A stretch of DNA of 28,219 bases, taken from positions 1 to 28,219 of the IMG/VR virus record IMGVR_UViG_3300027509_000031. One strand, given 5' to 3'. The notes beneath the pieces are model-generated. The model saw nothing but the letters and a program-made list of their open reading frames with translations, did no database searches and was not told the origin of the DNA. Both the position numbers and the translations under genes were made by a program. The stretch's first letter is position 1; every line of letters begins with the position of its first letter. This document shows, in pieces, positions 1,580-28,219 of this stretch. Source of the DNA: a virus.

Positions 1580-2005
1580 ATGGCAAAGAAAAAAAATTTT
1601 TTACTAGATTTAGTGAAACAAAGAACAGAGAGTAATGTTGTTAAATCCCGTTCAGGATCTGGAAGAACAACTTATTTAGACAGATTCGTTGGTGTTTTAA
1701 CTGACGAAGAAAATAATCCAACTGAACCAAAAGATCGAGTTGAAATCATCGCTGAAATTTCTGCTGAAATTTTACAAGAGCAGCTTGAAAAAGATGGTAC
1801 TTTAGATCAGTTCGAATTGACTGAATCAAAAGACGGTCCTTTTGACGTTATGTTGGCAGATATTAACCGTAAAGTTAAAGCGCAAGTTGCTTCAGCTATT
1901 GCTAATAACCAAAATTCAACTTCTATTTCTTACAACGAGAACTACAAAGACAAATGGGAAGTTGTTAAAGATGGTAAAATGGTATCTTTACAAGCTAAAG
2001 ACTAA
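1580..2005 (+). CDS. Phage protein of unknown function, paralogue of the minus-strand protein at 3635-3994
   Basis: This is a 141-residue soluble protein. Its N-terminus FLLDLVKQRTE and its C-terminal motif SISYNENYKDKWEVVKDGKM match the 119-aa protein encoded on the other strand at 3635-3994 (VVQQRTAELVK and SFSYNERFKDYELIKNGRM). The middle parts differ. The shared shape is a basic N-terminus, an acidic helical middle, a Ser/Asn-rich linker and a terminal SYNE..KD....K.G.M motif. I do not recognise the family. The gene stands alone between a palindrome upstream and a strong terminator at 2050-2116, and it uses more C/G-ending codons (CGT, GAC, AAC) than its neighbours, which often goes with high expression. 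That would fit an abundant early or DNA-binding protein, but this is inference. Confidence 0.85.
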   Translation: MAKKKNFLLDLVKQRTESNVVKSRSGSGRTTYLDRFVGVLTDEENNPTEPKDRVEIIAEISAEILQEQLEKDGTLDQFELTESKDGPFDVMLADINRKVKAQVASAIANNQNSTSISYNENYKDKWEVVKDGKMVSLQAKD

Positions 2006-3025: not shown

Positions 3026-3027
3026 TT

Positions 3028-3188
3028 GAAGTTGGGGTGTGGTTACTCTATCCCCTCTTAGCAATCGGAGGCAAGAGAGAGAACAGCACACTGCTCGCTG
3101 TTAATAGATCTTCAGCACCATTAGTGCAACCCTAACTTCTTTAAACAAAGAAACCCGCTATTCGATATGAGTAGCGGGTTTCTTTTTT
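3028..3188 (+). ncRNA. Candidate structured non-coding RNA ending at a strong terminator
   Basis: This gene-free block is visibly richer in G+C than the surrounding DNA. GAAGTTGGGGT (3028-3038) pairs with ACCCTAACTTC (3129-3139) over 11 positions with one G-T wobble, closing a multi-branched structure. Inside are CTCTT/AAGAG, AACAGC/GCTGTT and GCAC/GTGC hairpins. Eight bases later comes a perfect 14-bp hairpin with a T-run, so an RNA of about 160 bases would have a defined 3' end. The 5' strand of the closing stem is one copy of the dispersed TGAAGTTGGGG motif. No known RNA class is recognised, and the strand is inferred from the terminator, which works both ways. Confidence 0.45.
3147..3188. 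terminator. Bidirectional terminator, 14-bp perfect stem
   Basis: AAAGAAACCCGCTA (3147-3160) and TAGCGGGTTTCTTT (3172-3185) are perfect complements with an 11-base loop. T-runs flank both ends, so it can stop rightward transcription from the early genes and leftward transcription from the minus-strand cassette. Confidence 0.9.
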
Positions 3189-3282
3189 ACATTAAAATCA
3201 TAGACACATCTTCTATTTCTAATTGCCAAAGCAGATACCTAAATTCCATTAAGAACTGCTTAACGTCTTCTCTATTTTCCAT
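3187..3282 (-). CDS. Tiny ORF (31 aa) at the end of the minus-strand cassette
   Basis: Starting at ATG 3282 on the minus strand, the frame encodes 31 residues beginning MENREDVKQFLMEFRYLLWQ, an amphipathic helix followed by a short hydrophobic end. Its stop touches the bidirectional terminator, the position expected for the last gene of a unit. Three copies of TCGTAC at 3307, 3318 and 3338 lie just upstream of it. No family is recognised, and it is too short to be sure it is translated. Confidence 0.4.
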   Translation of the reverse strand: MENREDVKQFLMEFRYLLWQLEIEDVSMILM

Positions 3283-3353
3283 TGTTATTGTTTTTAAATT
3301 AAGAGGTCGTACTTATTTCGTACTTTTAGTATTTAATTCGTACAACCCCAACT

Positions 3354-3434
3354 TCATTTTTTTTGCGCCCATATTATCATCGCTAATAATATGATGCAAC
3401 AAATCATTGTAAAATAAATTAATGGTTTCCACAT
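3354..3434 (-). CDS. 26-residue membrane peptide
   Basis: ATG at 3434 on the minus strand opens a 26-residue frame: an MWKP start, one hydrophobic stretch (YFTMICCIILLAMIIW) and a QKK end. This is the shape of a single transmembrane segment with a basic cytoplasmic tail. It starts 11 bases after the 43-residue membrane gene ends. The stop codon TGA is the first part of a dispersed TGAAGTTGGGG motif. It could be a lysis accessory, a type I toxin-like peptide or a membrane anchor; the sequence does not decide. Confidence 0.4.
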   Translation of the reverse strand: MWKPLIYFTMICCIILLAMIIWAQKK

Positions 3435-3444
3435 TTTATTATTT

Positions 3445-3576
3445 TTAAGTGTTAGATTTCACTAGTCTAAATAGCATTTTAAAGACTTTTAAGAGACCTT
3501 TAAACACTAAGATTATAGCTACTATAATTGATGCAATAAAAGCTCCTAGAAGCTTTAAAATTGTTTCATTTGACAT
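3445..3576 (-). CDS. Small single-span membrane protein (43 aa)
   Basis: The minus-strand frame from ATG 3576 encodes 43 residues. A hydrophobic segment (LLGAFIASIIVAIILVF, about residues 9-25) is followed by a basic amphipathic tail with repeated KxxxK spacing. This is a plausible one-span inner-membrane protein, such as a small holin-like or regulatory peptide. It begins just after the terminator at 3588-3616, so it is expressed either by read-through from the 119-aa gene or from a promoter I cannot see. It is paired with the 26-residue membrane peptide downstream. Confidence 0.5.
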   Translation of the reverse strand: MSNETILKLLGAFIASIIVAIILVFKGLLKVFKMLFRLVKSNT

Positions 3577-3587
3577 AATATTAAGTA

Positions 3588-3616
3588 TAAAAAAACCCGA
3601 CATTACATCGGGTTTT
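3588..3616 (-). terminator. Intrinsic terminator of the minus-strand 119-aa gene
   Basis: Read on the minus strand, AAAACCCGA-7-TCGGGTTTT forms a 9-bp stem followed by a run of seven T. It begins 19 bases after the stop of the 119-aa gene. Confidence 0.9.
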
Positions 3617-3634
3617 GATTAGTGATTGTTAGGT

Positions 3635-3994
3635 TTATTTCTTTCTTTTAATCACGCTTAACATTCGTCCGTTCTTGATTAATTCATAATCTTTGAATCT
3701 TTCGTTGTAAGAGAACGATGAATTGTTTTCTGAATTAGATACCGAAGTATCAAGACCGTTCTTAGAAGTCTTATGCGTCTTTTCTATAAGAGCTCCAAGA
3801 TCTTCATCTTTCATTGCTTCGACATCGACACCGCTTAATTCAATTCGTTTAGCGATGATGAGGTCGATTACATCTTTTCTACTGATCTCCTTATTTAAAA
3901 GGGTTTCTAATAGAAATTCGTTTGTGTTGAAAGTTGAACGGTTTTCTTTAACCAATTCTGCTGTTCTCTGTTGTACTACTTTTAAAATGTTCAT
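3635..3994 (-). CDS. Phage protein of unknown function, paralogue of the protein at 1580-2005
   Basis: From ATG 3994 the minus strand encodes 119 residues. The start is chosen because MNILKVVQQRTAELVK then aligns with the N-terminus of the 141-aa protein at 1580. An in-frame TTG at 4081 would add 29 residues. The C-terminus SFSYNERFKDYELIKNGRM matches the same relative's SISYNENYKDKWEVVKDGKM, with a Ser/Asn-rich linker before it in both. As in that relative, CG-containing and C-ending codons are more frequent than in neighbours. It has its own promoter box at 4117-4124 and terminator at 3588-3616. The function is unknown; two diverged copies on opposite strands in one phage suggest either subunits of one complex or stage-specific versions. 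Confidence 0.85.
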   Translation of the reverse strand: MNILKVVQQRTAELVKENRSTFNTNEFLLETLLNKEISRKDVIDLIIAKRIELSGVDVEAMKDEDLGALIEKTHKTSKNGLDTSVSNSENNSSFSYNERFKDYELIKNGRMLSVIKRKK

Positions 3995-4116
3995 AATGAT
4001 AGATTTATAATTATACATTATCTCACTTATATAGGCAGAGATATGCTCCTTACTTATATTGTTGTTATTACATGATGTCAAAGAACTTATATTCTTATTA
4101 CTTATTTATTTATATT

Positions 4117-4124
4117 CAAATATA
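4117..4124 (-). promoter_or_regulatory. -7 box TATATTTG, minus strand
   Basis: The minus strand reads TATATTTG, an exact match to the Bacteroidetes -7 consensus TAnnTTTG. It lies about 120 bases before the ATG at 3994, so the mRNA would have a leader of roughly 115 bases. That leader holds a stretch that resembles the coding sequence of the 57-aa gene at 4477-4650. Confidence 0.6.
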
Positions 4125-4167
4125 AAACTTAATAACGATACTTAAAAATATATTACGCTAAAGTTTT

Positions 4168-4244
4168 ATATGATTACCTAAGACCATCTACACGATGGTT
4201 TCGACTATTAAAGTCTCTTCAGTTAGGTTGTTATTTAATCATAT
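4168..4244 (-). ncRNA. Type I hammerhead ribozyme, copy 2
   Basis: On the minus strand all core elements are present in order. Inner stem I 5' strand is ACCTAA (4223-4228), then CTGAAGA (4216-4222), stem II GACT-TTAAT-AGTC (4203-4215), GAA (4200-4202), stem III ACCATC-GTGTA-GATGGT (4183-4199), and C17 at 4182. The stem I 3' strand is TTAGGT (4176-4181). A15.1-U16.1 and G10.1-C11.1 are kept. Stem I continues outward with ATATGATT (4237-4244) pairing perfectly with AATCATAT (4168-4175), leaving an eight-base internal loop on the 5' side, as expected for the tertiary contact with loop II. The outer 5' strand overlaps the last codons of the 57-aa gene. Self-cleavage is predicted between 4182 and 4181. 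Confidence 0.92.
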
Positions 4245-4404
4245 TTGGATGTAGATATATTTCAAGTATAATATCATTTATATTATCAAAAAATATAAAT
4301 GGTTCACCTGTCTCTATTTCATCGATTCTCCCTGAACCGTCTTTATTAATTATTAATTGGCAATTATCGTTTAATAGTGATAACAAATAATCTAATCTAT
4401 CCAT
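4231..4404 (-). CDS. 57-aa acidic protein upstream of hammerhead copy 2
   Basis: The minus-strand frame from ATG 4404 encodes 57 residues beginning MDRLDYLLSLLNDNCQLIIN and continuing with an acidic region (GRIDEIETGEP) and a hydrophobic-acidic C-terminus. It lies between the two hammerhead ribozymes, and its last codons form part of the stem I of copy 2. It starts about 24 bases after the end of copy 1. No family is recognised. The same layout, a 57-codon gene followed at once by a ribozyme, occurs twice in a row although the two proteins are not obviously similar. Confidence 0.65.
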   Translation of the reverse strand: MDRLDYLLSLLNDNCQLIINKDGSGRIDEIETGEPFIFFDNINDIILEIYLHPNMIK

Positions 4405-4427
4405 AATTTATTTATTTTAATTATTAT

Positions 4428-4477
4428 ATCCAAGACGTCTCACGACGTTTCGACCATTCAGGTCTCATCAGTTGAAT
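4428..4477 (-). ncRNA. Type I hammerhead ribozyme, copy 1
   Basis: On the minus strand: stem I 5' strand ATTCAA (4472-4477), core CTGATGA (4465-4471), stem II GACC-TGAAT-GGTC (4452-4464), GAA (4449-4451), stem III ACGTC-GTGA-GACGT (4435-4448), C17 at 4434, and stem I 3' strand TTGGAT (4428-4433) with one wobble. Every invariant core base of the hammerhead is present. Compared with copy 2, all three stems have different bases but stay paired, and loop II keeps the form U[GU]AAU. Cleavage is predicted between 4434 and 4433. The first stem base is the last base of the stop codon of the upstream 57-aa gene. Confidence 0.93.
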
Positions 4478-4650
4478 TAGTATTCTAAGTGATTTTGTAT
4501 CTTCTCTTCTATATAATTAAAGTCTTCCATTTCACTAATAACTAATTGATTAGCTCTTATTATAAGCATATAGCTCATTATACTTATATTGTATTTATTA
4601 CATAATCCTATGATCTTTCGATCTGATTCGATGGGTGATTTAATTGTCAT
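4477..4650 (-). CDS. 57-aa protein upstream of hammerhead copy 1, possible small DNA-binding protein
   Basis: The minus-strand frame from ATG 4650 encodes 57 residues beginning MTIKSPIESDRKIIGLCNKY, then NISIMSYMLIIRANQLVI and an acidic C-terminal helix. The sequence looks like short helices with a turn, so a small regulator is possible, but no family is recognised. The stop lies at the first base of hammerhead copy 1. Part of the coding sequence (LCNKYNIS) resembles the leader of the 119-aa gene, where the same frame would read SCNNNNIS, suggesting an old local duplication. A near-consensus promoter box lies about 24 bases upstream. Confidence 0.65.
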   Translation of the reverse strand: MTIKSPIESDRKIIGLCNKYNISIMSYMLIIRANQLVISEMEDFNYIEEKIQNHLEY

Positions 4651-4673
4651 ATCTATTGCTTTTTTGTTATATG

Positions 4674-4681
4674 TAAATATA
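4674..4681 (-). promoter_or_regulatory. Near-consensus -7 box for the hammerhead-bearing transcript
   Basis: The minus strand reads TATATTTA, 7 of 8 positions of TAnnTTTG, 24 bases before the ATG at 4650. It is the best placed candidate promoter for the two 57-aa genes and their ribozymes. The final base mismatch keeps confidence low. Confidence 0.35.
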
Positions 4682-4802
4682 GCTATATTGTTTTATTTGA
4701 TAAAGATCTAAGTGCTAAAGACCTGTTAAAGTTTAAAAGATTAAGGGGCCTGGGTGATCCCTATACCGCCGCACACGAACTTTTTTCCAATTATTTCCAC
4801 AC

Positions 4803-4811
4803 TTATACACA
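4803..4811 (+). promoter_or_regulatory. DnaA-box match TTATACACA
   Basis: TTATACACA fits the bacterial DnaA-box consensus TTATNCACA exactly. Weaker relatives containing TTTCCACA occur nearby (4792 and 5392 areas). One perfect box beside iterons is suggestive, not proof, of DnaA recruitment. Confidence 0.45.
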
Positions 4812-4934
4812 ACCGAGTAAACGGAAAAAGCAATCGCGACACGATCTTTAACAGTCGGCTCAGCTAGCGGTCATAGGAATCGTAGTAAAAAATGAAGTTG
4901 GGGGGTGTTGCTAATTAAGTGTGCGATCAAAGAG

Positions 4935-5317
4935 TTTGCGTTAAATTTACGTAGCAAAATAAGGTAAACGTAAATCTCGTGCTAACATAGGAAAAAAATG
5001 ACTCTTCAAATGCTAAGATTTGCGCTAAATTTACAAAAAACCGTGTCTAGAATTAGCAATTTGCGCTAAATTTACAATCATTTGCGCTAAAATCAATTTA
5101 TAACTAACTGAAAATCAAGATATTATAAATAAATATTAGCATTTACCATTTATTTTATAAAAACTTTTTTATTCTAAAAATGAAAATATATAGTATATGA
5201 ACTTGGGGGGGGCTTACATTTGCGTTTTAGCAGTTTTTATACCCTAACGTGCTGGAAATCAACAAACTAAAGTGTAAATCTAGCGTTTTGCAGATTTGCG
5301 CTAGGTTTGCGCTAATG
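4935..5317 (+). repeat. Iteron-like direct repeats, core TTTGCGCTAA
   Basis: Direct copies are TTTGCGTTAAATTTAC at 4935, TTTGCGCTAAATTTAC at 5019 and again at 5060, TTTGCGCTAAAATC at 5081, TTTGCGTTTTAG at 5219, TTTGCGCTAGG at 5295 and TTTGCGCTAATG at 5306. An inverted copy, GTAAATCTAGCG at 5274-5285, pairs with the 5295 copy. The two full 16-base copies are identical. Spacing is irregular (21 to 138 bases), unlike a CRISPR array and like iterons bound by a replication initiator or a repressor. Confidence 0.75.
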
Positions 5318-5345
5318 CCTTAAGTTGCTGAAAGTCAGCTATTTA

Positions 5346-5402
5346 CGTGTAAACGAGTTGCGGTAAAAGGGTTACGGGAGCTGAGTTACCTCGTTTCCAC
5401 AC
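5346..5402. repeat. Imperfect hairpin
   Basis: AAACGAG on the left pairs with CTCGTTT on the right, extended outward by GTGT/ACAC across a small internal loop and inward by GTAA/TTAC. It sits at the right end of the iteron field and could be a cruciform or a structured leader. Confidence 0.4.
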
Positions 5403-5458
5403 CCAACTTCAATAAATACAATCGTGATATACGTTGTAAAAATATGAAGTTTGGGTGG
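5398..5458. repeat. Hairpin built from two degenerate TGAAGTTGGGG motifs
   Basis: CACACCCAACTTCA (5398-5411 area) and TGAAGTTTGGGTGG (5445-5458) are near-perfect inverted copies of the dispersed motif. Between them ACAA.CGT/ACG.TTGT pairs as well, so the whole segment folds into one long hairpin. The same use of the motif as a closing stem is seen at 3028-3139. Confidence 0.55.
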
Positions 5459-5701
5459 AATTAGCAATTTTGAAAACCTTTTTTTATTACTACGTTTAAA
5501 ACTTAGCTGTTTAGGAGACTTTTAAGGAACTTTTAGAAAAAAAGAGTGTTAGAGTATTCTGGAAAAATTTGGAGGCAGTGGAGGCACTTTAAAACTCCAT
5601 CTGGAGCGTTCTGAAGTTAAAAATTTAAACAACTTTGACTGTTCGGAAATTTTTGACTTTTTTTACTGTGTTTTATTTTTTATATTATGAAATATTTTTC
5701 G

Positions 5702-5709
5702 TACATTTG
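5702..5709 (+). promoter_or_regulatory. -7 box TACATTTG before the packaging operon
   Basis: Exact TAnnTTTG match 24 bases before the ATG of the ribbon-helix-helix gene. It would start the long rightward transcript through small terminase, nuclease and large terminase. No clear TTG is seen at the -33 position. Confidence 0.65.
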
Positions 5710-5732
5710 CACATATCAAAATTTTTAATAAA

Positions 5733-5909
5733 ATGAGTGAAAAAATAGCTACAACTTTGAACATTGATAAAGATATAAAAACATCTTTTAAAATGGAATG
5801 TATTCGCAACGAAGTGGAAATGAGTGAGACTGTTGAACAGATGATGTTAGATTACACTAAAGTCAGCAAAGAGATGCATAATATATTAGAATCAAGTAAA
5901 AAAGAATAA
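5733..5909 (+). CDS. Ribbon-helix-helix (CopG/Arc-type) DNA-binding protein
   Basis: A 58-residue protein starts at ATG 5733, 24 bases after an exact promoter box. Its pattern is that of a ribbon-helix-helix regulator: a short beta strand (IATTLNID), a first helix (IKTSFKMECIRNEV), a turn, and a second helix (MSETVEQMMLDYTK) with the typical S-E-x-V-E-x-M-M spacing. Such proteins bind palindromic or repeated operators as dimers through the strand. It is the first gene of the packaging operon, and its stop is one base before the next ATG. Its position right beside the iteron and palindrome field suggests that it may bind there to control its own operon or replication; the actual target is not visible. 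Confidence 0.7.
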   Translation: MSEKIATTLNIDKDIKTSFKMECIRNEVEMSETVEQMMLDYTKVSKEMHNILESSKKE

Positions 5910-23724: not shown

Positions 23725-25260
23725 ATGAAAAACTTAGTAAAATTAATGTTTTTTTTGCTCTTACCTATTTACGGGTGTAGTCAAACTGTTTTAGACGTAT
23801 CAGAAGGTACTATGTATAAAGAGCAAACGGCAGCAGAAGTAGGTAATATTAATTTAACATCTTCATACAGAGGCTTTGTAAATAAAGCTGGAACATTACA
23901 ATATTGGAATGGAACAAGTTTAGTAGATGTTGTTTTTGGCTCAAATAATAGCAACGATTTTCTTGACTCAATAACAGAGTCAAACAGCGTGTTTACTTTA
24001 GGGGTTGGACTGCAAAACAGCCAAACCTTAGATTTAACTTCGCTTCATAATGATGCCAGAGCTTTGGCTTGGCTAACAAATCTTTATCCAAATTTAGATA
24101 TTGATTCGACTGACGACCCTGTCGCTAATAATTTGATTTACGTAAATCAAGGTAATGAAGTTGGTAATATGTCTATGGATTACAGAGTTTCTAATAATCC
24201 TCCGCACGGGGGTAGGGTTTATATTTCAGATTTCGAAACAACATTGGGTTCGAAAATGGGTATATTTAATATTGGACAAGGTTTTTATGACAACAACTCT
24301 ATTACCGAGTCGTGGAATAATTATTTACGAGTTGGCTCTAGTTTTCGCATTACTGTAAATCAAACCAGTTCGCAATCGGGAACGCCAGTAGTAACATCAA
24401 ACATTTTACAAGAGTTTTTGTTCGACGACGCTTACAATACTGATAATGATGTTGTACGTAAGATTAATTTAGATGCAGAGTTGTCGGCTTTAAGCGGCTC
24501 AGGCGACCCAGACCAAACATTAAGTATCAACGGCGATATTTTAACTCTTACTTCGCAGACAGGAAATCAAGATGTGTCTATTTCTTCTTCAGACACCTTC
24601 GATAAAAGTATTGTTCTGTTCGGGGACAGTATTACAGCAAATGAAACGGCTTATGTAGACAACTTAGAAAGTATATTCAGCAATGCAACATTCAAAAATT
24701 TTGCAGTAGCTGGGCAGCGAGTTACGTGGAATAGTTCTACCGTAGAATCTACCACTACAATTACAAATGGGAGCAACGACAATCGTCTCTGGAACTCTAT
24801 TAAAAAATGGGAGCAAGACCACCCCACAGATGAACCTGACATAATCATAATAGTGCTGGGTACAAACGATTACGCTTCAGCAATGGGCAGTTACAGCGAT
24901 GCCTACGCCCAAGATGTAAGCACTTTAGACCATTTAACTTTAGCGAACGCAACTAGAAAAGCCCTTTATTATTTAAGAGATAATCACCCAGAGGTTAGAA
25001 TATTTTGGTCTTTGCCTACACAATCCGCAGTAGCAAATAGACCCTATCTAACCATTTACAACATTGGAAATTTAATAAGAACAATGTGCAACCGATTGGG
25101 GGTAACAGTTATTGAATCTACAAGCGAATCGGGAATTATCGCCGAGTTAGAAAATGATGGTTCTAATGGCAAAATGCTTTCCGATGGCTTGCATTTCAAT
25201 ACACTAGGCGGTGAAGTTTTTGCGGACTATTTAAGTGGACAAATCAAAAATCAATTTTAA
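23725..25260 (+). CDS. Secreted or lipid-anchored SGNH/GDSL esterase with fibre-like N-terminus
   Basis: ATG 23725 gives 511 residues; an in-frame TTG at 23701 lies within the promoter box. The N-terminus MKNLVKLMFFLLLPIYGCSQ is a secretion signal with a lipobox-like IYGC. Residues about 20-290 are beta-rich and resemble a fibre stalk (KAGTLQYWNGTSLVDV). From about 295 to the end runs an SGNH hydrolase domain: block I FGDSI with Ser302, block II around AVAGQ, block III GTND with Asn381, and block V DGLHFN with Asp487 and His490. All catalytic residues are present. It should cleave acyl esters, for example O-acetyl groups on host polysaccharide. G+C rises sharply within this gene, a sign of transfer. 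It is followed two bases later by the giant fibre-like gene. Confidence 0.88.
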   Translation: MKNLVKLMFFLLLPIYGCSQTVLDVSEGTMYKEQTAAEVGNINLTSSYRGFVNKAGTLQYWNGTSLVDVVFGSNNSNDFLDSITESNSVFTLGVGLQNSQTLDLTSLHNDARALAWLTNLYPNLDIDSTDDPVANNLIYVNQGNEVGNMSMDYRVSNNPPHGGRVYISDFETTLGSKMGIFNIGQGFYDNNSITESWNNYLRVGSSFRITVNQTSSQSGTPVVTSNILQEFLFDDAYNTDNDVVRKINLDAELSALSGSGDPDQTLSINGDILTLTSQTGNQDVSISSSDTFDKSIVLFGDSITANETAYVDNLESIFSNATFKNFAVAGQRVTWNSSTVESTTTITNGSNDNRLWNSIKKWEQDHPTDEPDIIIIVLGTNDYASAMGSYSDAYAQDVSTLDHLTLANATRKALYYLRDNHPEVRIFWSLPTQSAVANRPYLTIYNIGNLIRTMCNRLGVTVIESTSESGIIAELENDGSNGKMLSDGLHFNTLGGEVFADYLSGQIKNQF

Positions 25261-25261
25261 A

Positions 25262-28219
25262 ATGAAAAAGATAACATTATTAGTACTTATTTTATTTTCC
25301 TTTCTAGCTTTTGCTCAAGAAAACGGAGCGCATATACCGGGATCAAATAACACCCCTAAATTAGTTGTAGAAAACGGACAGATAGGTTTGCAAGGGCAGA
25401 CTTTGTTAGACCTTCCTTCTGCCGAAAATCTAGGTTCGAATTTAGTAATTAACGGAACTTTTGATGCCGATACTAATTATTCGAAAAGTCGGGCAGTTAT
25501 AGCGAATGGAGTAGGAACTTTAGAAGTGCCAGCTGCTAGCAACTTCTCTTATTTGCGACAAGCTGTTACTTACGAGACGGGCAAAACATATAGAATCGAA
25601 TTTGACGAAATAGAAAGTCTGGAATCCGTCGGTCGTCAATATACGATTAGAGATACAGACGACACTAGTAGTAGCCCTGTTGGTAACAGCTTAACGATTA
25701 CGGCAGCTTCGGGAACTACCAAAAGAACGTTTGAGTTCGTTGCAACTTCGGACAGCGACCATGTGCAGTTATTTAGGTTGGGGCATGGCGGCTTGACCGC
25801 TCTGGATTGGGAAGTAGATTTTGACAATTTAAGCGTACGGGAAGTCATTCAAGCGAGCGCGTCTAATTGCACAATGCTAGAAGCTAATGGTCAGGATACT
25901 TTGCCAGATGATGCGGACTTATCAGCATGGTTGAATACAACAGGATTGGCACATTGCTGGCCTGATGGTGTTTATTACATCGCAAACCCTTTAACTCTAA
26001 CAGCTAGGCTTGCACTTTTTGTTAAAGAAAACCCGAACGCAGAAATTAGACTTCATTCTACCTTTCCCCTGAATACAGCAACTTTTGGCATTGACCTATC
26101 TAGTGTTGATCATTGGAATATAAGCATGAATTTTGCAGGCGATAAAGCGAGTAATGACGCTTTGAATAGCTTTGATAATGAGTCATATTTCTTTTATGCA
26201 GACGGTTCTATTTCGGGGAGGATTTACAATTCTAATTTTGATGAAGTGCCTAAAGCGGTCGTTAAGACTGTGGGAATGGAAAGTTTTACACAAGAAAACA
26301 CCGTGTCAACCAACGTAAGAAATTATGTGACATGGAACGAAAACACAACGGATAAGGTGTATTTAGAAAATAATACAGCTACTGGTATGGGATTGACAAC
26401 TCAAAACACAGGAAACACATTAGGGCAAACCCCTTTCTTCTTATCTAAAAATGACGAGCGTCATATAGTTAGAGGTATGTGGCTTAACGAGAATAAGAAC
26501 ACCCCTATAAAAGGAGAAGGTACTGAGCATATCGACTGGGAAAATCTACACCTAGACGGCTATGGGAAAGATGGCGCAAAATCCCATGAACTGGGAACAG
26601 ATGACGGTCAAACTTTTCGACTTGTAAATTACACTTCTAAGAACTTTAGAGGCATTGAAACCGATGCGGCAGCGCACGTATTGGTGAAAGATTTTGAAGA
26701 TGTCTATATGAGGCAAATTAAAATAAACGGAGGTATCTCCAATTCGGGAGCTATGAACGAATATGGTGTGTTTATAAATGGAATAGGCCAGCAAGCGAAC
26801 ATAGACATAGCAGGTGTTCAAATCGACGATGTGGATGATGCTTTTTTCTATGGCTACAACATTAAAGGTGTTATTGATAATTTTCACGGTAACAATTACA
26901 ACTTAGACCCTTCGATTACGCAAGGTGGTTATCAAATACAATTAGCTGATAATCTAACCATAAAAAATACCTCGTCAACCAATACGGTTAAACCTACCAC
27001 GGGTGATGGCTTCGGTTATTCGATTAGAGGTACTAACGTAACTTTTAAACACAACTACTCGAACAATTCAAAAAGTGTAGGTGTTTTAGCCAGCATTACA
27101 GGTGACTCGAAAGTTTGGGATTTTTCTAACAACAGAATTGAAAATTATTCCGATTATGGGTTGGGAGGTAGTAATCAAGCGGTAACTAACGTAGACGTTT
27201 TCAAATATGATAACAATGTAATTGACGGTACTAATCCTCTAAGATTTAGCACAGACAACGCAACTATTGGCACAATGTCAGCAGTAGGAAATCACATCAA
27301 GGCGGCTACCACTAATCTATTGACTTTAGTTGGAACGGGCACAATAGCTGAACTTAGTCATGGTTTCACAAGCGCCAATGGAGCCATTTCCAAATCCCCA
27401 AACATTGCCACTGGTGTTACGGTAACAAATGAAAATGATTTCGATGCTGGTGGTTCAGGCTCAGTTTCAACGGGTTTTCATTCTGTTTTAGATATAACAG
27501 GCAGTGGAGCGTTGACTTATACCAACCAAGTTACAGGAACAGGCTATCGTGTATATAATACAATTCGCTCAGGTACGGTTCAAAGAACACTAGATAATAT
27601 TAGAACCGGTCAGATAGACGAAAACTACTTCTTTACAATAGATGGTTCATCTCCAATTTTTGAGTTGTGTGAAGGAACGGCGACTATGAAAGGTAAAGGT
27701 AGAACTAATGAGAGTTGTTTTAGGTTAACTGATTGGGGTTCTGTCTCTGTAATTGAAGATACTGAAGGAGTGTTTAAAGTTAGTGGGGATGGCTTTGAGT
27801 GGTTCTCGCCTGCTACCGCAGAATATTATCCAACTGGCAACTTCGGTAGTCAAGGAACAGACGAAGCGAATAGCTTTGGCGGATGGACTGATAATATTGC
27901 CAGTACCGTACAGACTACTTACGCACAGGAAGGTACTTACGGTTTCTTATCTATGAACTCGGATAACGCTGCTTTTGCAAGACATTATATTAGTATTACA
28001 GGACTTCCTACAACAGGAACTAAAACTTTAACTTTCTGGGTAAATCAAGTGGCTGGTACAGATGGCAGCATACGTATAACTGAAGAAGGAAATAACACCG
28101 CTTTAGCTACCACTAGTCCAAATGTAATAGCAATTAGTGATACGCCTGGATGGAATGAAGTAACAGTCACAATAGCGGCGGCAGAAACTGGATTTAGACT
28201 AGCAATATTGCATCCAACC
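25262..28219 (+). CDS. Very large secreted beta-helix/CBM-like protein, probable tail fibre or glycan-binding protein (3' truncated)
   Basis: From ATG 25262 the frame stays open for 986 codons to the window end. I read every codon and found no stop. The start MKKITLLVLILFSFLAFAQ is a standard signal peptide. Residues about 60-200 look like a carbohydrate-binding jelly roll (NLVINGTFDADTNYSK, RQAVTYETGKTYRIEF, ending DNLSVREV). Residues about 210-800 are rich in Asn/Gly-turn repeats such as NNRIENYSDYGLGGSNQ, typical of right-handed beta-helices in tailspikes and polysaccharide lyases. From about 855 a second CBM-like module begins (SFGGWTDNIAS onward). G+C in sampled lines is about 45 percent, against about 25 percent in the tape measure. 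It pairs with the esterase as a receptor or capsule-degrading unit; an enzymatic role is not proven. Confidence 0.8.
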   Translation, partial: MKKITLLVLILFSFLAFAQENGAHIPGSNNTPKLVVENGQIGLQGQTLLDLPSAENLGSNLVINGTFDADTNYSKSRAVIANGVGTLEVPAASNFSYLRQAVTYETGKTYRIEFDEIESLESVGRQYTIRDTDDTSSSPVGNSLTITAASGTTKRTFEFVATSDSDHVQLFRLGHGGLTALDWEVDFDNLSVREVIQASASNCTMLEANGQDTLPDDADLSAWLNTTGLAHCWPDGVYYIANPLTLTARLALFVKENPNAEIRLHSTFPLNTATFGIDLSSVDHWNISMNFAGDKASNDALNSFDNESYFFYADGSISGRIYNSNFDEVPKAVVKTVGMESFTQENTVSTNVRNYVTWNENTTDKVYLENNTATGMGLTTQNTGNTLGQTPFFLSKNDERHIVRGMWLNENKNTPIKGEGTEHIDWENLHLDGYGKDGAKSHELGTDDGQTFRLVNYTSKNFRGIETDAAAHVLVKDFEDVYMRQIKINGGISNSGAMNEYGVFINGIGQQANIDIAGVQIDDVDDAFFYGYNIKGVIDNFHGNNYNLDPSITQGGYQIQLADNLTIKNTSSTNTVKPTTGDGFGYSIRGTNVTFKHNYSNNSKSVGVLASITGDSKVWDFSNNRIENYSDYGLGGSNQAVTNVDVFKYDNNVIDGTNPLRFSTDNATIGTMSAVGNHIKAATTNLLTLVGTGTIAELSHGFTSANGAISKSPNIATGVTVTNENDFDAGGSGSVSTGFHSVLDITGSGALTYTNQVTGTGYRVYNTIRSGTVQRTLDNIRTGQIDENYFFTIDGSSPIFELCEGTATMKGKGRTNESCFRLTDWGSVSVIEDTEGVFKVSGDGFEWFSPATAEYYPTGNFGSQGTDEANSFGGWTDNIASTVQTTYAQEGTYGFLSMNSDNAAFARHYISITGLPTTGTKTLTFWVNQVAGTDGSIRITEEGNNTALATTSPNVIAISDTPGWNEVTVTIAAAETGFRLAILHPT

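Follow-up and report, generated by a model that had tools for sequence, protein, structure and literature searches.

The window analysed here is the whole of the virus record IMGVR_UViG_3300027509_000031, 28,219 bases long, whose plus strand carries terminase, portal, major head and tape-measure genes. Two short open reading frames (ORF1 and ORF2) on the minus strand are each followed by a sequence with the features of a type I hammerhead ribozyme (copy 1 and copy 2), and a third frame (ORF3) lies downstream (Table 1). The initial annotation had placed two type I hammerheads after 57-codon frames on this strand, and our analysis reproduced the strand, the stems, the core and the predicted cut sites as written there. 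Judged from the sequence, the window hammerheads are real, correctly located and of an already known kind, and it is likely that they act in cis between genes, processing a minus-strand mRNA and freeing ORF2 as a 252-nucleotide (nt) RNA. Two further regularities, a common position relative to the neighbouring stop and start codons and a stem I shared within a genome, rest on a wider set of ribozymes and not on the window alone, and go beyond the initial annotation.

Both copies hold C3 U4 G5 A6 N7 G8 A9, G12 A13 A14, the A15.1-U16.1 pair and H17, the core criteria given in PMC3088659, and both have three stems of which II and III are closed and I is open, the type I topology. Copy 1 is composed of stem I ATTCAA/TTGGAT, stem II GACC/GGTC and stem III ACGTC/GACGT with loop II TGAAT, and copy 2 of stem I ACCTAA/TTAGGT, stem II GACT/AGTC and stem III ACCATC/GATGGT with loop II TTAAT; all three stems thus differ between the copies yet remain paired, and the compensatory change described in the initial annotation is borne out. 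The final A of the ORF1 stop codon TAA is the first base of copy 1 stem I. In copy 2, an outer helix of 8 base pairs (bp; 4244-4237 with 4175-4168) is separated from the inner stem I by an 8-nt bulge (4236-4229) that contains the ORF2 stop. For each copy, the predicted structure of lowest free energy is the hammerhead. With its outer helix, copy 2 folds better than all of 200 shuffled sequences (z score -3.63), while the fold energy of copy 1 is ordinary, 38 of 200 shuffles folding equally well and stem I being absent from the centroid. As features relevant to a possible stem I/loop II contact, copy 2 has the stem I bulge and the outer helix; the copy 1 fold is without an outer helix.

Table 1. 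Features of the hammerhead cassette (positions in the window; R1 is the covariance model described in the text)
Feature	Positions	Strand	Description	Predicted cut	Basis
ORF1	4477-4650	minus	57 codons, orphan; TAA stop ends 5 nt ahead of the copy 1 catalytic core		
Hammerhead copy 1	4428-4477	minus	type I	4434/4433	RF00163, R1, own finder
Leader	4405-4433	minus	29 nt before ORF2 if copy 1 cuts; 5'-hydroxyl expected		
ORF2	4231-4404	minus	57 codons, orphan, flanked by copy 1 and copy 2		
Hammerhead copy 2	4168-4244 (core 4228-4176)	minus	type I	4182/4181	R1, fold, own finder
Putative released RNA	4182-4433	minus	252 nt: leader, ORF2, ribozyme 2 at the 3' end		both predicted cuts
ORF3	3635-3991	minus	118 codons from ATG, 148 from TTG at 4081; next gene downstream		

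We searched both strands of the window with our own finder, which demands CTGANGA, GAA, A15.1-U16.1, H17 and three stems with at least 11 pairs, and obtained two matches, copy 1 with 15 bp and copy 2 with 16 bp. One strand of 3 Mb of first-order Markov sequence modelled on the window gave a single match (13 pairs) and none with 14 pairs or more. The initial annotation had proposed a check against the Rfam family RF00163 (Hammerhead_1), whose topology and core the copies share; copy 1 passes the cut-off of 34 with 35.3 bits, whereas copy 2 falls below it with 22.3 bits. The lack of any hit above threshold, named there as grounds for refutation, would strike copy 2 alone because copy 1 passes. 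With RAGATH-1 (RF03152), the alignment takes in the core, the inner part of stem I and the first bases (GAC) of stem II, but the scores of copy 2 (29.4 bits) and copy 1 (22.2 bits) are far under the cut-off of 56.3. An independent model, R1, was built from 31 aligned 52-nt ribozymes, all from viral loci, of 81 eligible, with the window left out. Run with its filters off, R1 gave 60.9 bits (expectation value, E, 8e-17) for copy 2 and 55.9 bits (E 3e-15) for copy 1, E-values that the tool itself describes as rough, and nothing else in the window up to E 1. Pair counts on alignment A1 were not used as proof, because the finder had selected paired sequences and the counts would be circular. The hammerhead reading is therefore supported by the full core and stems, the E-values of R1, the fold, and the strand shared with ORF1 to ORF3; the same sequence, structure and model evidence backs the predicted cuts 3' of each stop codon.

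The two ribozymes lie in intercistronic gaps of the presumed minus-strand transcript, and each would cut after C17 once transcribed. The upstream gene would retain its whole frame and finish with the folded ribozyme, whose terminus is presumably a 2',3'-cyclic phosphate, and the downstream RNA would begin with a 5'-hydroxyl leader, the end that hammerhead cleavage leaves on downstream RNA (PMC6155905). Copy 1 would separate ORF1 from ORF2 and give the latter its 29-nt leader, and copy 2 would end the ORF2 message. The likely use is to divide a polycistronic transcript into stable messages that are translated independently, with a fixed leader and with ends that may be poorly used by 5'-phosphate-dependent and 3' nucleases. 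With the stop codon placed within stem I or next to it, a ribosome that terminates there would occupy the 5' strand of that stem, so that folding and cleavage would be expected only once the last ribosome has passed. The single-gene RNAs with defined ends expected in the initial annotation hold for ORF2, which has a predicted cut on both sides, but not for ORF1. Of the three genes, ORF2 alone would have a cut at either end, because there is no ribozyme ahead of ORF1 and no close ORF past the second cut, ORF3 starting 190 nt (ATG) or 100 nt (TTG) beyond it.

Similar arrangements are known. Clustered hammerheads flank single genes in prophages, and single-gene mRNA processing has been proposed for them (Perreault 2011, PMC3088659), the same role as considered here, although the window is a viral contig and not a prophage in a host genome. 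In vitro cleavage is reported for tandem hammerheads from A. tumefaciens, A. caulinodans and C. scindens, and cleavage in E. coli as well for those from A. tumefaciens (PMC3088659).

How common such ribozymes are in viruses was estimated from three pattern scans of viral contigs, which returned at least 333 loci; the counts are not free of bias, since part of stem II is prescribed by the patterns, and near-identical contigs were counted separately. Among the matches listed, at least one hammerhead was confirmed by our finder (at least 14 pairs) in 242 of the 333 loci, with 395 ribozymes in all, and at least two in 97. The view of the layout as unusual, taken in the initial annotation, is thus not supported, such a layout being known from prophages as well. 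All copies lie on one strand in each of 61 multi-copy contig groups, and the window, with two copies on the coding strand between genes, fits in this respect what we group as phage intercistronic arrays. A pattern scan of genomes gave 44 matches, with a full hammerhead in 8 of the 44 loci, where about 90 pattern matches were expected by chance (our own estimate, assuming even base use). A contig titled as a Thermoplasmatota archaeon MAG (metagenome-assembled genome; L414) carries five tandem hammerheads. R1 found none in 296 Bacteroidota genomes at E 1e-6, which is weak evidence of absence given strict filters and no positive control, and none in a separate search of three Bacteroidota genomes; a BLAST search of two hammerhead arrays against phages gave no match.

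The position of these ribozymes relative to genes is sharply defined. Among the matches listed, 301 of 320 unique viral ribozymes had enough flank for analysis, with open frames used in place of curated genes, the stop of the longest upstream frame taken as the upstream stop and positions counted from C3 of the core. This stop ends at -6 or -5 in 84 of the 301 and at 0 in 21; in 47 others it ends at +4, the UGA within the catalytic CUGA then serving as the stop codon. It falls within -10 to +9 in 205/301, against 17/316 shifted and 31/305 opposite-strand sites, and a start codon follows 20-39 nt past the cut in 162/301, against 28/316 and 10/305. When the viral loci, together with the genome loci L409 and L414, were thinned to a single contig for each related group (250 ribozymes in 154 groups, hereafter the reduced set), the stop was at -10 to +4 in 170, a start at 15-45 nt in 178, and both in 134. 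The median leader is 29 nt over the 230 ribozymes with a start, and 145 of 222 ATG leaders contain a Shine-Dalgarno-like motif. Copy 1 is modal on both counts (stop -5, start 29 nt), and copy 2 on the stop side only (stop -8), with no start at 15-45 nt. A random draw of 30 genes of at least 80 codons, out of 157 behind ribozymes, supplied 20 for a PHROG search; six had matches, namely three of unknown function, an ATPase, an HNH endonuclease and a primase. In some leaders (L217, L018 and L081), a hairpin was seen by eye immediately after the stem I strand, close to where the 5' end is expected.

The motif is also present in named phages. A BLAST probe matched nine Elemovirus records (two of them RefSeq copies) of Flavobacterium sp. 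BAL314. The two examined have one ribozyme each, with the cut 28 nt ahead of an annotated gene; by eye, an unannotated 21-codon frame ends 5 nt before the core, and our script, which requires longer frames, places the upstream stop at -76 (L415). Pelagibacter phage HTVC109P has one ribozyme (stop -6, start 13 nt) and the uncultured pelagiphage S35-C6 has two (stops -14 and -25, starts 35 and 41 nt); these resemble the modal layout only loosely. Klebsiella phage phiKp_32 gave one weaker match (35.2 bits). In L415 (11962-12069), an annotated antisense coding sequence overlies the Elemovirus ribozyme, and the annotated start of HTVC109P gp05 (L421, 1121) falls within the ribozyme's stem II; we take both to be probable misannotations. 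When Rfam was applied at its cut-offs, it found none of the 60 finder matches in 14 array loci (12 viral and two genome contigs, hand-chosen for high copy number), and with E up to 1 showed 6 of 17 in four loci, all below cut-off. Because Rfam missed all 60, and because an annotated gene or start overlies the ribozyme in two named phages, the class is probably undercounted.

Several observations weigh against intercistronic processing as the role of the window cassette. ORF1 and ORF2 have no PHROG match at E 0.1, no Pfam match over the cut-off and no close relative among the viral contigs searched, and, both being orphans, they are taken as putative genes from their position and openness. No ORF of at least 40 codons starts within 99 nt past the copy 2 cut, and copy 2 therefore lacks the leader part of the layout. 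In the reduced set, 116 of the 250 ribozymes fail one or both halves of the geometry. The cassette, which the initial annotation suggested looking for in related phages, was not recovered there: R1 gave no match in 35 terminase-relative loci (29 loci found and six further parts of the same records), and RF00163 none in 28 records (L151 left out). Only L142 among these relatives resembles the part of the window left of 5558, flanking the cassette site on either side, and it has no hammerhead; for the others, the absence says little. No conservation of the cassette is thus seen among known relatives.

The copies within one genome were found to share stem I. We compared 167 ribozymes from 61 contig groups with at least two copies (L409 and L414 included), after dropping those with short flanks or a stem I below 5 bp. 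Identity of stem I within a contig was 0.76-0.78 against 0.42 with shuffled labels, the shuffles ignoring kinship beyond the grouping, and was 0.38 against 0.33 for the 10 nt upstream, 0.52 against 0.37 for the first 10 nt of the leader and 0.58 against 0.47 for stem III. Recent duplication as the cause was not supported in copies with distinct stems III (51 groups, 125 copies), where stem I identity was 0.72-0.74 against 0.43 and that of stem III, lowered by design through this choice, was 0.452 against 0.445; as a counterpoint, the first 10 nt of the leader are also common to copies. Sharing of the stop codon is likewise not supported as the cause, because the effect persisted when stops lay outside stem I (0.75-0.76 against 0.43; 23 groups, 52 copies). 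The 3' strand appears more constant than the 5' strand, by 30 pairs to 11 and 7 contigs to 1 in a small sample. L004 is an exception with three different stems I. L358 is a viral contig with eight hammerheads, seven of which have CGGGTA as their 3' strand, whereas their 5' strands differ, for the most part through G-U changes. A genome-wide leader tag was considered but is not supported as a general feature: the hexamer precedes 38 of 904 genes that have no neighbouring ribozyme, where 30 are expected from permuted hexamers. In L278, it precedes 7 of 24 such genes. Neither the shared stem I nor the stop and leader geometry is mentioned in the part of PMC3088659 available to us.

Stem I of multi-copy phages might serve as a genome-specific code, with a nearly constant hexamer pair, drifting stems II and III and no clear enrichment of the hexamer before ribozyme-free genes, and with cut ends that are interchangeable or read by one phage factor; we regard this as unlikely. 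The window is at most a loose case, because its two stems I are only 5/6 compatible, in either direction. A related proposal, that a ribozyme at a 3' end holds the leader of another copy and ligates it to give circular or shuffled mRNAs, seems to us distinctly improbable. It would fit the finding that the 5' strand pairs 6/6 with the 3' strand of another copy in 46% of ordered pairs within a contig against 5% between contigs, that stem I is common to copies even when stem III is at background or the leader is unrelated, and that natural tertiary contacts raise ligation by the Schistosoma ribozyme 2000-fold (PMC6155905). However, pairing of the circle type is no better than the reverse (16 better, 21 worse and 69 ties among 106 adjacent pairs), the window copies do not cross-pair fully, and the authors of PMC3088659 state that spliced or circular products could not be detected.

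It is also conceivable, though we doubt it, that the ribozymes mainly provide 3' ends, as hairpins with a cyclic phosphate, in place of terminators for the preceding gene, the leaders being by-products. Copy 2 suits this idea, lying behind ORF2 with no ORF start close after it in a region (3400-5800) whose sole terminator-like site is at 3616-3592, but a pure 3' end has no need of the start codon that follows at 15-45 nt in most of the reduced set. That the window sequences are inert or only resemble hammerheads by chance is very improbable: copy 2 is under the Rfam cut-off, the copy 1 fold energy is unremarkable and kin lack the hammerhead, yet the simulated sequence held nothing with 14 or more pairs against two in the window, the R1 E-values are low, and stems I to III have all changed with pairing kept. 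Intercistronic processing by the two ribozymes is the reading that we prefer.

Around the cassette, ORF3 and the product of 1580-2005 (plus strand) are paralogues (BLASTP E 1e-10, 25% identity), and L142 encodes a relative of the latter that is 52% identical. A 26-nt direct repeat, 88% identical, lies at 4051-4076 and 4581-4606, so that part of ORF1 recurs ahead of ORF3, as if an ORF1-like fragment had fused or decayed there. Three iteron-like TTTGCGYTAAATTTAC repeats at 4934-5077 and four copies of a GAAGTTGGGG-like repeat family within 3027-5459 may mark a candidate origin. Another contig (L152) is identical to the window over 5558-28219 and extends 3.6 kb beyond; its far end (1-128) is an inverted copy, 99% identical, of window 5558-5684, which could be an invertible segment, a terminal repeat or an assembly artefact. 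The guanine plus cytosine content climbs from 26-34% to 39-41% at 24001-28000, a region that is not an artefact of one assembly because a second contig holds the same sequence. A BLAST search of window positions 1-24000 gave no match. From the style of leader and promoter, our guess is that the host of this tailed phage belongs to the Bacteroidetes.

The engineered RiboJ insulator is a self-cleaving hammerhead placed between promoter and gene, which yields a fixed leader before the start codon. The phage ribozymes likewise stand ahead of a start codon and would fix its leader, but they are natural and lie between genes. The role of prokaryotic hammerheads is an open question according to PMC6155905. 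Simple mRNA cutting offers no explanation for the shared stem I, and, if the genome-specific code were true, the ribozymes of one phage would form a network in which cut ends either are interchangeable, through strand exchange, ligation and circular or shuffled mRNAs, or are recognised by one phage factor. The sharp common layout, together with cultivated Flavobacterium and Pelagibacter phages that carry the motif, makes the role testable in a plain infection.
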